Source of the DNA: Synechococcus sp. Tobar12-5m-g
GTDB taxonomy: Bacteria; Cyanobacteriota; Cyanobacteriia; PCC-6307; Cyanobiaceae
Direction of reading: 5' to 3'
NCBI RefSeq assembly: GCF_024345415.1
Contig: NZ_JAGQBB010000014.1
Location: 1-64,000, forward strand
Length of the DNA stretch: 64,000 nt
Shown here: piece by piece, positions 3,620 through 9,493 of the stretch
How the letters are laid out: the number at the start of each line of letters is the position of its first letter
Numbering within the stretch: the stretch's first letter is position 1
Position numbers and translations under genes: made by a program
The notes under the pieces: model-generated
Database searches by the model: none
The model's input: only the letters and a program-made list of their open reading frames with translations
Told to the model about the DNA's origin: nothing

Positions 3620-3983
3620 TCAAGCGATCAGACCGATCACCAACAGCACCCCCTTTGGCTCCCCATAGGCCAAGCGGTCACGGCAATCGAGGATCAAGTA
3701 GCCCAGGCCCGAGCTGACCTCGAGCATTTCCGCGGGAACCAACGCCACCCAGATCAGACCGAAGGCCACCCGGATGGCCGGCAGGATGATGCGGGTGACG
3801 ATCTCGATCGGCTCGGGGGCGAAACTGCACACCACCTGAATGAACAGAGGGTCCACCTGTCACACGGCCGTGATCGTGCTCAGCAGGATCGGATAGCCCC
3901 GGCTGAGCAGCGCCGTCAGCAGGGACCGCAGCAGCAACCCCGCCAGCAGCCCCAGGGCCGCCATCAGATTGTTCTGGAGGGCA
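3620..3983 (-). pseudogene. Remnant of NitT/TauT/Ssu-type ABC permease
   Basis: In one reverse frame the stretch from about 3983 to 3863 encodes a hydrophobic segment (NLMAALGLLAGLLLRSLL). It is followed by an in-frame TGA at 3860-3862. The frame then continues with TRIILPAIRVAFGLIWVALV and PAEMLEVSSGLGYLI, a close match in pattern to the C-terminal part of nitrate, taurine or sulfonate ABC permeases. The central EAA cytoplasmic loop that contacts the ATPase appears deleted, so this cannot work. No intact partner gene is nearby. Its place between two sulfur operons makes a former sulfonate or taurine transporter plausible, but nitrate or cyanate cannot be excluded. Confidence 0.6.
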
Positions 3984-4204
3984 GGTGCCCTTGACAAGCA
4001 GCCGGCGGATCTGCGGCATCCTCGCTTCCCTGCATCGGTGCACGTTCCTGGAGCCGATGTGGGCGCAGGGGATGACCTGAGGCACATCGATGTCGCTGGA
4101 GATCGATCCGGGTCAGCGCGGTCACCCCTGCAGGCGATGGGGTGGCTGGTGCGCTGGCTCGTTCTCTCATCTTGATGTAGTCGCGAAGACACCGCTGAGC
4201 CAAG

Positions 4205-4219
4205 TTGATTGGCTATCAA
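4205..4219. promoter_or_regulatory. TTGAT-N5-ATCAA dyad upstream of cysK
   Basis: A perfect 5-bp inverted repeat with a 5-bp spacer, ending 21 bp before the cysK ATG. The half sites equal those of the FNR/CRP-family consensus (usual spacer 4), and the spacing also fits a LysR-type T-N11-A box. CysR, the sulfur regulator of S. elongatus, belongs to the CRP family as I recall. Its role here is inferred. Confidence 0.4.
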
Positions 4220-4240
4220 TGAAATTTTGCCGGCGATCCC

Positions 4241-5254
4241 ATGACCTTCACAGACGTTGCCCAGACAAGCAACCCGGTCATTCCCGCCGTCGATGACAAC
4301 AGCCTCTCGATCGGGCACACCCCTCTGGTTCGACTCAACCGCGTCGTCGGTGACGCGAAGGGGATCGTTTACGCCAAGATCGAGGGGCGCAATCCCGCCT
4401 ATTCAGTGAAATGCCGGATCGGCGCCGCCATGGTGTGGCAGGCGGAGAAGGATGGGCTGCTGGGGCCAGGCAAGGAAATCATCGAACCCACCAGTGGCAA
4501 CACCGGCATCGCCCTGGCCTTCGTGGCGGCGGCGCGGGGGATTCCGATCACCCTCGCCATGCCGGAAACGATGAGCCTGGAGCGCCGCAAGCTGCTCAGC
4601 GCCTATGGGGCCAAGCTAGTGCTCACGGAGGGGGCCAAGGGTATGCCCGGCGCGATTGCCAAGGCACAGGAGATCGCCGCCTCGGATGCCCAGCGCTACG
4701 TGCTGCTGCAACAATTCGCCAACGCCGCCAACCCCCGGATCCACCACGACACCACAGGCCCCGAGATCTGGAGCGGCCTCGGCGGGCGGGTCGACGCTCT
4801 GGTGTCTGGGGTCGGTACCGGGGGCACGATCACCGGCGTCAGTCAGTACATAAAGCGTACGCTCGGTAAGCCCTTGGTGACGGTGGCAGTGGAGCCGATG
4901 GAGAGTCCGGTGATCAGCCAGACTCTGGCCGGTCAGCCCGTCCAGCCGGGACCCCACAAGATCCAGGGAATCGGCGCCGGATTCGTGCCGGCCAATCTCC
5001 ATCTCGACCTGGTCGATCGGGTTGAGCAGATCAGCACTGCCGAGGCCGTGGCCTTCGCACGGCGCCTCACCCGCGAGGAGGGGATCCTCTCTGGAATCTC
5101 CAGCGGTGCCGCCGCTGCCGTGGCGGTGAAGCTGGCCCACGAAGAGGCTTTTGCCGGCCGCACGATCGTGGTGGTGCTGCCGGATTCCGGCGAGCGCTAC
5201 CTGAGCACGGTGTTGTTTGAAGGCCTCTTCAACGAGCAGGGGTTGCCGGTCTGA
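4241..5254 (+). CDS. cysK: Cysteine synthase (O-acetylserine sulfhydrylase), SrpG-like
   Basis: PLP enzyme joining O-acetylserine and sulfide to give cysteine. The 337-residue product has the family hallmarks in order: [13 protein letters not shown], the PLP lysine in YSVKCRIGA at about residue 57, the substrate loop [13 protein letters not shown], the phosphate-binding [10 protein letters not shown], and SGISSGAA near the C terminus. The N terminus is about 15 residues longer than usual, and no other in-frame start lies closer to the conserved core. It begins a tight operon: the rhodanese gene starts on the base after its stop (TGAATG). The cysK - rhodanese - cysE - srpI order suggests it is the sulfur-regulated copy rather than the housekeeping one. 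Confidence 0.95.
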
Positions 5255-5719
5255 ATGAGCCCGCAGGAACACATCGATGTGGTGGCGACCACGTCGGCCG
5301 GGGAAGGATCCGACGACGATGTTCACAGTATCCATCCCACCATGACCACGTCCCACGGTCAGGCATTCCTTCAGAGAGCAGAGGCCGCACGCCGCCAGGT
5401 CCGGGAAATCAACCCGAAGGAATTGAAAGTTCATCTGGCGGAGGGTGCAACCCTGATCGACGTCCGCGAGGAAGAGGAGTTCGATGCTGGTCACATTCCC
5501 GGTGCCAGGAACGTGAAGGGTTCAACCCTCTCCGAGCAGGCTCCAACGCTCCTTCCCGACCCGTCCCAGCCGATTGCTTTGGTCTGTGGTGGTGGCAACC
5601 GCAGTGCAATAGCGGCCCTTGAACTACAAACCCTGGGTTACAGCTCCGTGGTGTCGCTGCAAGGGGGCTTGCGGCAATGGCCTGAGGCACTGGTTCGTCC
5701 GGTTTCTTCAGGTCGCTGA
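5255..5719 (+). CDS. Single-domain rhodanese sulfurtransferase
   Basis: 154-residue product with one rhodanese domain at about residues 55-150. It has LIDVREEEEFDAGHIPGARN, the active-site loop CGGGNRS with catalytic Cys at about residue 111, and QGGLRQW at the end. Such domains accept persulfide sulfur, for example from a cysteine desulfurase. The first 30 or so residues look unconserved. A second ATG at 5342 would give a shorter protein starting MTTSHGQAF. Both neighbours abut with TGAATG junctions, so it is co-translated with cysK and cysE. The operon context suggests it takes or delivers sulfur in the same pathway as the encapsulated desulfurase; that partnership is inference. Confidence 0.9.
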   Translation: MSPQEHIDVVATTSAGEGSDDDVHSIHPTMTTSHGQAFLQRAEAARRQVREINPKELKVHLAEGATLIDVREEEEFDAGHIPGARNVKGSTLSEQAPTLLPDPSQPIALVCGGGNRSAIAALELQTLGYSSVVSLQGGLRQWPEALVRPVSSGR

Positions 5720-6724
5720 ATGCTGACCGATCCGCGCCCGCCCCAGGTTCAGCCATTCCTTGATGGGGCTAAGGGATTGAGCGATCCAGGCTGGAATCTT
5801 CGGGAAGTCGTTGAGTCTCTCCGTGGGATCCGCGAGCGATCACCACTCGGGTGGCAACATCCGAATCGCCTTGTGCCCCTACCCTCTCGTCGTGCCCTGA
5901 CCCAGGTCCTGGAGGGCCTCAGCGCTTCCCTTTATCCCCATCGGCTCGGTCTGCCGGAGCCCGATCGACTGGGAATGTCCACGACGGTGACTACCACGGA
6001 CTTCTTCGTGGGCCATACCCTCGACACCGCTCTGCGGGCCCTGCGTGACCAGATTCGCATCGAAATCGAAGCCTCCAAAATCTCACGCAACGGAGGTGGT
6101 CAGGATCTGGGACTGGATCGCCAGGCAACGGCAATTGTTTCCGCCTTTGCTGACCAGCTGCCCTTCATCCGATCTCAGCTGGACTCCGATCTCCAGGCCG
6201 CCTTCCGGGGAGACCCGGCCGCCGGGAGCCTCGATGAGGTGCTGGTCTGCTACCCGGGCGTGAAGGCAATCACGGATCACCGCTTTGCCCATGCGCTCTA
6301 CGAGCTTGGAGCGCCGGTGGTCGCGCGCATCATCGCCGAGCTTTCCCATTCAGCCACTGGAGTGGACATCCATCCCGGTGCAGTGATTGGCGAGAGTTTC
6401 TTCATCGATCATGGCTCGGGCGTGGTGATCGGCGGGACGTCGGTGATCGGAAACAACGTGCGCCTCTATCAGGCGGTGACCCTGGGTGCCAAGCACTTCC
6501 CAATCGACGAACAGGGCCATTTGGTGAAGGGCAAGCCGCGCCATCCGATCGTGGAGGATGACGTGGTGATTTATTCCGGAGCTACGATTCTGGGGCGGGT
6601 CACGATCGGAAAGGGTTCCACAATCGGCGGCAACGTCTGGTTGACCCGCAGCATTCCTCCAGGTACCACCATCACCCAGGCCAAAGCCCTCACTGAGACG
6701 TTTGGGGAAGGCGGCGGCATCTGA
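5720..6724 (+). CDS. cysE: Serine O-acetyltransferase (EpsC/CysE family), SrpH-like
   Basis: Makes O-acetylserine from serine and acetyl-CoA, the substrate for the CysK encoded two genes upstream. The 334-residue product has a helical N-terminal domain to about residue 195 and then a left-handed beta-helix of hexapeptide repeats, including ATGVDIHPGAVIGESFFIDH and GATILGRVTIGKGSTIGG. The catalytic His lies in FIDHGSG. The long N-terminal domain is that of the EpsC-like serine acetyltransferases rather than the short E. coli CysE. The ATG lies directly after the rhodanese stop. A C-terminal Ile, the usual residue for CysK docking, is present (GEGGGI). Confidence 0.93.
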   Translation: MLTDPRPPQVQPFLDGAKGLSDPGWNLREVVESLRGIRERSPLGWQHPNRLVPLPSRRALTQVLEGLSASLYPHRLGLPEPDRLGMSTTVTTTDFFVGHTLDTALRALRDQIRIEIEASKISRNGGGQDLGLDRQATAIVSAFADQLPFIRSQLDSDLQAAFRGDPAAGSLDEVLVCYPGVKAITDHRFAHALYELGAPVVARIIAELSHSATGVDIHPGAVIGESFFIDHGSGVVIGGTSVIGNNVRLYQAVTLGAKHFPIDEQGHLVKGKPRHPIVEDDVVIYSGATILGRVTIGKGSTIGGNVWLTRSIPPGTTITQAKALTETFGEGGGI

Positions 6725-6748
6725 AGAAATGCCATGACATCTCGCGTA

Positions 6749-6761
6749 ACGATGTAATCGT
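6749..6761. promoter_or_regulatory. ACGAT-GTA-ATCGT dyad before srpI
   Basis: A perfect 5-bp inverted repeat with a 3-bp spacer in the 113-bp cysE-srpI gap. It is followed by a pyrimidine-rich leader (about 6765-6830). It could be an operator for a separate srpI promoter or a small mRNA hairpin; sequence alone cannot say which. Confidence 0.3.
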
Positions 6762-6837
6762 ACCGAGAAGGCTTTCGTTTTGTTGCCTTTTCGATTCTCT
6801 TTGTTTCCGTTCCATTCCTCTTCCTGCGTGATTCACC

Positions 6838-7767
6838 ATGGCGAAATCCAATCCAACCCATTTGGCTCTGGGCGATGCGGCGGCCCGCCAGTTGGCGAAC
6901 GCCACCAAGACCGTGCCCCAGCTGCTCGGCATCTCGCCGCGCTGGCTGGTGCCGATGCTCTCCTGGGTGGGCGTTGAGGCGGGGATCTATCGCGTCAACA
7001 AGGTCAAGGACGAGTCACGGGTGCTGACGGCATGTTCGCAGCGTGATGAGATTGATCTTCCAGAAACATTCGTCGACTACGAGGAGAATCCACGCGAATA
7101 CTTTCTCAGCGCTGTCACCACGACCGTTGACATCCACACCCGGATTTCCGATCTCTACAGCAGCCCCCACGATCAGATCCAGCAGCAGCTCAGGCTGGCG
7201 ATTGAAACGATCAAGGAGCGTCAGGAAAGCGAGCTGATCAACAACAGCGAATACGGTCTGTTGAGCAACGTTGCTCCCAGTCAGCGAATCAAGCCGAGGA
7301 TCGGGGTCCCCACCCCTGATGACCTTGATGAACTGATCACAAAGGTTTGGAAACAACCGGCGTTCTTCCTGGCCCACCCCCGCACGATCGCCGCCTTTGG
7401 CCGTGAATGCACCCGCCGGGGTGTGCCCCCTGCCACGATCACGCTGTATGGCTCACCCTTCATCACCTGGCGCGGACTTCCACTGATTCCAAGCGACAAA
7501 CTGACCATTGAGGATTGCCGCAGCAGCATCCTTCTGTTGCGCACCGGCGAAGCTCGCCAAGGCGTGGTGGGGCTTTACCAGCCTGGTCTCCCCGGCGAAC
7601 AGGGCATGGGGTTGTCGGTGAAGTTCATGGGGATCAGCCGCAAGGCGATCGCCTCCTATCTGATTTCGCTCTATTGCTCCCTGGCCGTGCTCACCGAAGA
7701 CGCCATTGCAGTCCTCGAGAACGTTGAAGTGGACAAATTCCATGACTACAAGCATGAGTACCGCTGA
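6838..7767 (+). CDS. srpI: Family 2A encapsulin shell protein (SrpI)
   Basis: 309-residue shell protein of the HK97-fold SrpI family, which assembles into hollow icosahedral protein compartments. The start MAKSNPTHLALGDAAARQLA and the segments ISPRWLVPMLSWVGVEAG, TTTVDIHTRISDLYS and QPAFFLAHPRTIAAFGREC match the family closely. No cyclic-nucleotide-binding insertion is present, so this is type 2A rather than 2B. It is followed with overlap by a cysteine desulfurase carrying an extended N terminus, the known cargo of the S. elongatus SrpI shell. A 113-bp leader with a dyad separates it from cysE, so it may also have its own promoter. The S. elongatus homologue is induced by sulfur starvation; that regulation is inferred here. 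Confidence 0.93.
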   Translation: MAKSNPTHLALGDAAARQLANATKTVPQLLGISPRWLVPMLSWVGVEAGIYRVNKVKDESRVLTACSQRDEIDLPETFVDYEENPREYFLSAVTTTVDIHTRISDLYSSPHDQIQQQLRLAIETIKERQESELINNSEYGLLSNVAPSQRIKPRIGVPTPDDLDELITKVWKQPAFFLAHPRTIAAFGRECTRRGVPPATITLYGSPFITWRGLPLIPSDKLTIEDCRSSILLLRTGEARQGVVGLYQPGLPGEQGMGLSVKFMGISRKAIASYLISLYCSLAVLTEDAIAVLENVEVDKFHDYKHEYR

Positions 7768-9493
7768 TCGTCCCGGGGCCGGCATCGAGGCCGCAGCGCC
7801 ATCGGGATTTCCCGACGAATCCGAACTGAGTCGACTCGCCAACCAGATCTTCGCCGAACTCTCCGGCCATCTGGATCGATCCCAGCGAATCGAAGCTGAG
7901 GCCCAGCCCTTGGCTTCCAAGGAGGTTCTTTCGCCCGATGTTCCCCTCGACCAGGCCAGTTTTGGAGGATCGGAACTCAATGTCGACCGGCAACTCCGCG
8001 ATGACGTCTCCGCCACCCACCTCTCCCCCTCGGCTGAGCCGGCGCTGGTTGACCCCCGCACCCTGACGCCCGCAGCGATCACGGTTCCCCATGACCTCCC
8101 CTCGTTGGGGGGAGTGCTCAGCCAGTTCCCCGCCGCGTCGGATCTGCCTTACTTCATGGTCGGCGCCGTCAGTCCACCTCCCGGTGTTTCGCTGCCAACA
8201 GCCATCGACCCCGGAACCGGTTCGCTGGCCTCCCCAGCCCTCGCACCCCTGGAGCTGGCTCCAGATCCCTCCCGGGCAGCCCAGCCCCTTGATCCTGCCT
8301 TCATCCGACGCGACTTCCCAATCCTGCAGGAACGCATCAACGGGCGGCAACTGGTGTGGCTCGACAACGGCGCCACCACCCAGAAACCGCTGGCGTTGAT
8401 CGAGAGGCTGGAGCGTTTCTATCGCACCGAAAACTCCAACATCCACCGTGCCGCCCATGAACTGGCGGCTCGCGCCACCGATGCCTACGAGCAGGCCCGC
8501 GCAACCTCGGCCCGCTTTCTCCATGCGGCCAGCAGTGAGGAGATCATGTTCGTGCGCGGCACCACGGAGGGCATCAATCTGGTGGCCCAGTCGTGGGGTC
8601 GGCGCCACATTGAGGCGGGCGATGAGATCGTGCTCACCCACCTGGAGCACCACGCCAACATCGTGCCCTGGCAGCAGTTGGCCCATGAGAAGGGCGCCAG
8701 GCTGCGGATCGCTCCGGTGGATGACAGCGGCCAGGTGATCCTCGAAGCCTATGAGCGCCTGTTCACCTCACGCACGAAGTTGGTGGCCTTCACCCAGGTC
8801 TCCAATGCGTTGGGCACCATTCTTCCGGCAGAGGAGATGATCCACATCGCCCACCGGCACGGAGCACGTGTTCTGTTGGATGGCGCTCAAGGCATTGCCC
8901 ACACACCGGTGGATGTGCAGGCACTGGATGTGGATTTCTACGTGTTCTCGGGTCACAAGATCTATGGACCCACTGGCATTGGAGTGCTTTATGGTAAGCG
9001 GGATCTGCTGCACTCGATGCCCCCCTGGCAGGGGGGCGGCAACATGATCCGTGACGTGACCTTTGAGCACACGCTTTACCAGGATCCACCCCATCGCTTT
9101 GAGGCGGGCACCGGCAACATCGCAGACGCCGTGAGCCTCGCCACAGCCCTTGCCTATGTGGAACGGATCGGCATGCACGCGATCGAGCACGCAGAGCAGG
9201 AGTTGCTCGCTTATGCCACGCCTCTCCTGCAAGGGATTCCTGGCTTGCGGTTGTTTGGTTCTGCGGCCCACAAGGCGGGTGTGCTGTCCTTCTTGATCGA
9301 TGGGCTTGCGCCCGAGGCGGTGGGGTCCGCCCTCAATCAGGAGGGTATCGCTGTGCGTGCAGGTCACCATTGCGCCCAACCGATTTTGCGCCGCTTTGGC
9401 GTGGAAAGCACCGTACGGGCCACGTTGGGTGTGTACAACACCCATGCTGATGTTGACGCTCTTGTTGCCGCCCTGCGGCGGCTGCGTGCGTGA
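7754..9493 (+). CDS. Encapsulin cargo cysteine desulfurase with long N-terminal extension
   Basis: 579-residue product. Residues 1 to about 178 are low-complexity, Pro/Ala/Ser-rich and probably disordered. They hold two hydrophobic islands, SRLANQIF (about 26-33) and SDLPYFMV (about 129-136), which are candidate shell-binding motifs. Residues 179-579 form a SufS-type PLP cysteine desulfurase: FIRRDFPILQERINGR, PLP lysine in FSGHKIYGPTG (about 402), and catalytic Cys in VRAGHHCAQP (about 540). It removes sulfur from cysteine as a persulfide. The start overlaps the srpI end by 14 bp; an ATG at 7742 would give 26 bp of overlap. Family members lacking the extension are not cargo, so the extension and srpI together support encapsulation. 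Confidence 0.92.
   Translation: MSTADRPGAGIEAAAPSGFPDESELSRLANQIFAELSGHLDRSQRIEAEAQPLASKEVLSPDVPLDQASFGGSELNVDRQLRDDVSATHLSPSAEPALVDPRTLTPAAITVPHDLPSLGGVLSQFPAASDLPYFMVGAVSPPPGVSLPTAIDPGTGSLASPALAPLELAPDPSRAAQPLDPAFIRRDFPILQERINGRQLVWLDNGATTQKPLALIERLERFYRTENSNIHRAAHELAARATDAYEQARATSARFLHAASSEEIMFVRGTTEGINLVAQSWGRRHIEAGDEIVLTHLEHHANIVPWQQLAHEKGARLRIAPVDDSGQVILEAYERLFTSRTKLVAFTQVSNALGTILPAEEMIHIAHRHGARVLLDGAQGIAHTPVDVQALDVDFYVFSGHKIYGPTGIGVLYGKRDLLHSMPPWQGGGNMIRDVTFEHTLYQDPPHRFEAGTGNIADAVSLATALAYVERIGMHAIEHAEQELLAYATPLLQGIPGLRLFGSAAHKAGVLSFLIDGLAPEAVGSALNQEGIAVRAGHHCAQPILRRFGVESTVRATLGVYNTHADVDALVAALRRLRA

Follow-up and report, generated by a model that had tools for sequence, protein, structure and literature searches.

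A rhodanese gene lies within a cysK-cysE operon beside the genes for an encapsulin shell and its cysteine desulfurase in Synechococcus sp. Tobar12-5m-g, which raises the question of whether the rhodanese works with the encapsulated enzyme and, if so, in what form it would receive sulfur. We analyzed a stretch of 64,000 nucleotides carrying this locus (the window; contig NZ_JAGQBB010000014.1), which derives from a freshwater cyanobacterium of the Cyanobium/Synechococcus type. Family 2A encapsulins are widespread and include those of pathogens, and the route by which sulfur leaves the shell is the reason why such an operon matters. The system is induced by sulfur starvation, the N-terminal region of the desulfurase CyD loads it into the SrpI shell, the five-fold pore of the shell measures 3.7 Å, and knock-outs of srpI or cyd have no growth phenotype (Nichols et al. 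2021, PMC8049743). As possible destinations of the sulfur, the same authors named SufE or NifU, or else storage in the form of polysulfide. The literature describes Family 2A shells as storing sulfur, and PMC10960027 cites a paper on elemental-sulfur storage (Sci. Adv. 2024). According to Giessen and Andreas (2021, PMC8346489), the accessory genes most strongly enriched in Family 2A operons include rhodaneses, which were proposed as sulfur acceptors. The earlier note on this DNA had called the acceptor unsettled, which holds for the acceptor in vivo, but the idea of a rhodanese in this role was already in print. The pairing and the notion that the proteins work together are thus published, and the operon studied here is a well-supported example of it, for which an identical function has been proposed. 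The parts of that paper available do not mention the gene order found here, and we see no difference in principle. New here are the corrected start of the rhodanese gene and the finding that the pairing of rhodanese and encapsulin has arisen more than once.

The operon occupies positions 4241-9493 of the plus strand in the order cysK-rhodanese-cysE-srpI-CyD. The first gene (4241-5254) encodes an SrpG-type O-acetylserine sulfhydrylase (TIGR01139, 430.6 bits, cut-off 351). The cysE/epsC gene (5720-6724) encodes an SrpH-type serine O-acetyltransferase with a long N-terminus, which in profile searches scored under the cut-off of TIGR01172 (165 bits, cut-off 211) and just passed the EpsC model NF041874 (156 bits, cut-off 150). 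The product of srpI (6838-7767) matches the Family 2A shell protein (NF041162, 524 bits, cut-off 380; PF19307), and its nearest solved chain is SrpI itself (6x8m). The CyD gene (7742-9493) overlaps srpI by 26 nt and encodes a cargo cysteine desulfurase with an N-terminal extension of ∼180 aa, the SufS domain beginning around residue 185 of 583 (TIGR01979, 555 bits); it scores marginally under the cut-off for Family 2A cargo desulfurases (NF041166, 797.6 bits versus 800). Both the shell protein match and the adjacent extended desulfurase place the locus in Family 2A. The open reading frame at 5255-5719, its PF00581 match, and its neighbors cysK, cysE, srpI, and CyD were all confirmed, so the presence of a rhodanese gene in this operon stands as first noted. 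Further records and genomes of the Cyanobium type, possibly including duplicates of one strain, keep this gene order, and its conservation argues that the order is not due to chance. Upstream of cysK, the minus strand at 3620-4318 carries broken open reading frames that by eye resemble pieces of an ABC-transporter permease; they had no match in Pfam and are probably the remains of a decayed gene.

The rhodanese reading frame opens directly after the cysK stop codon and in the same frame, which produces a TGAATG at its 5′ end; TGAATG is also present at its 3′ end, and the earlier note had taken the two as zero-base junctions on both sides. We compared this region with four relatives of identical gene order (L008, L009, L015, and G090). 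In these, the counterpart of 5255-5341 is 89 nt long, differing in length by 2 nt, and contains an in-frame stop. Homology at the protein level, compared among the window, L008, L009, L015, and the pANL srp locus of Synechococcus elongatus PCC 7942, begins at Met30 (ATG 5342), and the pANL rhodanese as annotated begins at the same point (MADHTEEFLQ). Translation thus starts at ATG 5342, 87 nt past cysK, and the stretch 5255-5341 (plus strand) is a non-coding gap mis-read as the N-terminus of the rhodanese. A start at 5255 was rejected on the grounds of the stop and the length change in the relatives, and the 5′ junction is an artefact, while the 3′ junction is real. The rhodanese-cysE junction is tight here (TGA-ATG) and in the relatives (TGA-C-GTG), which argues that the rhodanese is coupled to cysE and not to cysK, from which it is separated by 87 nt here and by 89 nt in the relatives. 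The corrected start matters for cloning, as the annotated 154-aa protein would include 29 spurious residues. Within the gap lies a conserved inverted repeat (5275-5296, CGATGTGGNNGNNACNACGTNG, with no strand assigned); among 187 loci searched, it is present in all those fetched from the window's rhodanese clade and absent from the rest. The repeat is a candidate operator or RNA hairpin. When the gap of 87-89 nt was folded as RNA, the z-scores ranged from −0.04 to −2.55, which does not establish a structure, and folding alone does not decide between the two.

The corrected gene (5342-5719, plus strand) encodes a single-domain rhodanese of 125 aa (PF00581, 74.8 bits, curated cut-off 22.2). Its active site is complete, as had been claimed: the catalytic Cys82 (corrected numbering; codon 5585-5587) and the six residues after it form the loop CGGGNRS at 5585-5605 (plus strand), and the cysteine and GNR are invariant across six aligned srpI-linked members. 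In profile searches the protein did not reach the NCBIfam equivalog cut-offs for GlpE (46 bits versus 102) and PspE (33 bits versus 102), nor that of the MoeB family. A structure model (pLDDT 82) shows the rhodanese fold; its N-terminus is helical, and it lacks a disordered extension. Among the nearest solved folds are a persulfide dioxygenase-rhodanese, an NADH-dependent persulfide reductase, and the polysulfide-sulfur transferase of Wolinella. Such neighbors, found by sequence as well as by fold, handle persulfide and polysulfide; they would be compatible with a substrate among small sulfur carriers but are not diagnostic of it. We also considered the rhodanese as a second encapsulin cargo and rejected this, since the protein lacks a long N-terminal loading domain once its start is corrected.

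We then asked how often a rhodanese lies in srpI operons, a survey that the earlier note had proposed. Starting from 79 loci around srpI-like genes, we excluded the most divergent and scored 68, which fall into 37 genus-level groups. CyD was nearly always present, cysE was found within 4 kb of srpI in 38 of the 68 loci, and a same-strand rhodanese within this distance in 10. The density of rhodanese genes within 4 kb of srpI was 5.4 times that in the zone 4-10 kb from it (16 versus 4 genes; binomial p 7e-4, ignoring the kinship of the loci). Ralstonia, Variovorax, Burkholderia, and Aliarcobacter also have a rhodanese with srpI, in other positions: annotated plasmids carry the orders rhodanese-epsC-HTH-srpI-CyD (Variovorax), rhodanese-cysE-srpI-CyD (Burkholderia), and rhodanese-srpI-CyD-cysE-cysK (Aliarcobacter). 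No rhodanese was found in the Family 2A neighborhoods on annotated plasmids of Azospirillum and Methylosinus, inside the operon of Synechococcus 1G10, or in the complete Family 2A operons of Microcystis, Spirulina, most Streptomyces, and Rhodopseudomonas. Because many complete operons do without it, the rhodanese is not needed for the system. Within the window's family (201 genomes), srpI is present in 5 genomes, and a close rhodanese (E < 1e-30) occurs in 4 of these 5 versus 1 of the 196 genomes without srpI. In one genus (g6) of 42 genomes, the 5 that have srpI are precisely the 5 that have a close rhodanese (E < 1e-50; Fisher 1.2e-6, ignoring relatedness; some of the genomes may come from the strains that also supplied loci L008-L015). 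SrpH-type cysE is present in exactly the 8 genomes with a Family 2A-type srpI in a sample of 386 genomes from the phylum, and also in 5 genomes without srpI in the family sample of 201. The survey thus points to an association with srpI that is enriched and recurrent but optional. Four loci from filamentous cyanobacteria (L076, L077, L079, and L082) have two srpI-like shell genes, probably of Family 2B, flanking one desulfurase gene.

To learn whether the operon rhodaneses share one origin, we built a tree of 54 rhodanese domains. The window rhodanese falls in a clade (support 96/93) with those of the other Cyanobium-type loci, a copy near srpI in G044, and a catalytically dead copy in G188. 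A single group of all operon rhodaneses was rejected (p-AU 2e-9), as was a clade uniting Cyanobium-type and Burkholderiales-type rhodaneses (p 6e-4); these values reject one orthologous rhodanese family specific to srpI. The operons of Ralstonia, Variovorax, and Burkholderia resemble the window in having the rhodanese upstream of cysE, srpI, and CyD, but theirs belongs to another subfamily, with the loop CRSG(K/N)RS, and has no cysK in front. The locus on plasmid pANL, which is the type operon of the system, has the same five kinds of genes as the window operon in the order cysK/srpG-epsC/srpH-srpI-cyd-rhodanese (WP_011055152); there the rhodanese follows cyd at the end of the row, whereas in the window it separates cysK from cysE. 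The two rhodaneses are 46% identical over 111 aa, and that of pANL branches elsewhere in the tree, although a single clade with the Cyanobium type was not rejected (p 0.19). Since the alignment is short, the groups received their names partly with the first tree already in view, and the Aliarcobacter branch is long, we limit the claim to at least two origins of the operon rhodaneses. These results bear on the possibility that the rhodanese is a passenger with no specific role, one of the housekeeping sulfurtransferases that would drift into clusters of sulfur genes. Its patchy presence and several stand-alone relatives would fit, but the enrichment near srpI, the repeated independent recruitment, the conserved place in Cyanobium-type loci, and the conserved active site in srpI-bearing genomes make this improbable.

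Rhodaneses near cysK and cysE in genomes without srpI offer a further comparison, and the earlier note had held that finding them there equally often would speak against a link to the encapsulin. G188 encodes neither srpI nor a desulfurase of CyD length and has an SrpG-type cysK followed by a window-type rhodanese (L116:7916-8293), in the loop of which (SASGATS) the catalytic cysteine and the arginine are both replaced; this loss is seen in one genome only. G562, also without srpI, has an intact rhodanese of a neighboring type ∼1 kb from SrpG/SrpH-type cysK-cysE, with one gene, read by eye as a carbonic anhydrase, in between. In G022, which is 62% complete and lacks srpI, a two-domain sulfurtransferase adjoins an SrpH-type cysE. 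Related stand-alone rhodaneses lie away from sulfur genes in other cyanobacteria. The association is therefore strongest with srpI yet not exclusive to it, and the objection raised in the earlier note applies in part only: nearby rhodaneses exist in G562 and G022, and the copy in G188 is dead. An alternative is that the rhodanese belongs to the cysteine-synthesis module of SrpG and SrpH, where it would supply CysK with sulfide made from thiosulfate or persulfide, and is linked to srpI only indirectly. The tight coupling to cysE, the cysK-rhodanese pair kept in G188, and the genes near cysK-cysE in G562 and beside cysE in G022 agree with such a role. The value of each of these genomes is lessened by the dead active site, the intervening gene, and the incomplete assembly, respectively; moreover, the rhodanese of pANL and L010 lies on the CyD side, away from cysK-cysE, and in genus g6 it tracks srpI exactly. 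We therefore consider a purely cysteine-synthetic role unlikely. A bolder proposal is that this cyanobacterial lineage keeps rhodanese catalysis only where the SrpI-CyD compartment is present, making the protein the compartment's dedicated enzyme of sulfur retrieval, and that other, unrelated bacteria filled this role with rhodaneses of different descent; we regard this as doubtful.

How, then, might sulfur reach the rhodanese? The earlier note had suggested pick-up of persulfide from the encapsulated desulfurase, in line with the proposal of Giessen and Andreas (PMC8346489). The rhodanese would dock on CyD, either before encapsulation or at the shell surface, and take the persulfide from the active-site cysteine. 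There is precedent in Arabidopsis, where ABA3 delivers persulfide to the rhodanese STR18, and in natural bacterial desulfurase-rhodanese fusions (PMC8931425). In these the relay from desulfurase to rhodanese was demonstrated biochemically, but they are plant or fused proteins without a compartment, unlike the products of the window operon. The recurrent association in operons also speaks for docking. On the other hand, the rhodanese is optional, independently recruited subfamilies would each need the same docking surface, and a pore of 3.7 Å (PMC8049743) makes direct transfer from the enclosed enzyme unlikely, the rhodanese having no extension like that of CyD. We accordingly rate direct docking as a rather unlikely route. 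The same pore, too narrow for a protein of 13 kDa, together with the lack of an extension, argues for small carriers.

Our tentative preference, held with slightly less than even confidence, is that the rhodanese is an optional accessory member of the Family 2A sulfur operon and acts as a cytosolic sulfurtransferase on small carriers of sulfane sulfur, feeding CysK. The 13-kDa protein would not be co-encapsulated, as its 125 aa include no loading extension like that of CyD. Sulfane sulfur would exit the shell in the form of small persulfides, polysulfide, or sulfide; Cys82 would take sulfur from the small carriers and pass it to thiols, releasing sulfide, which CysK, with O-acetylserine from CysE, could re-fix as cysteine. 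That the gene is co-translated with cysE agrees with a place on the side of cysteine synthesis. This cytosolic, carrier-based reading is supported by the conserved gene order, the rhodanese-cysE coupling, the enrichment near srpI, the multiple origins, and the loss of the cysteine in G188, while the optional presence, the intact rhodanese of G562, the stand-alone relatives, and the non-specific fold matches count against it. A functional link to the module of SrpI, CyD, CysK, and CysE, as first put forward, is supported by the recurrent, independent association, and it is the direct pick-up of persulfide that is doubtful. The idea that the host has no other sulfur acceptors was rejected, because it encodes its own SufE and a second desulfurase of SufS size for Fe-S work. 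The repeated independent recruitment marks the rhodanese as the accessory protein to examine first, and its co-translation with cysE beside srpI and cyd provides a compact test system.

A second rhodanese-like sequence is present in the window at 116-517, just upstream of metY-metX. This fragment has a loop without the catalytic cysteine (LVGDSDQHTS) and a hydrophobic tail. Similar genes lacking the cysteine occur at L124:2423-2917, L118:5296-5778, L126:11491-12141, and L011:5262-5759, of which those in L124 and L126, at least, adjoin metY-metX; this suggests a conserved, non-catalytic, membrane-linked family.
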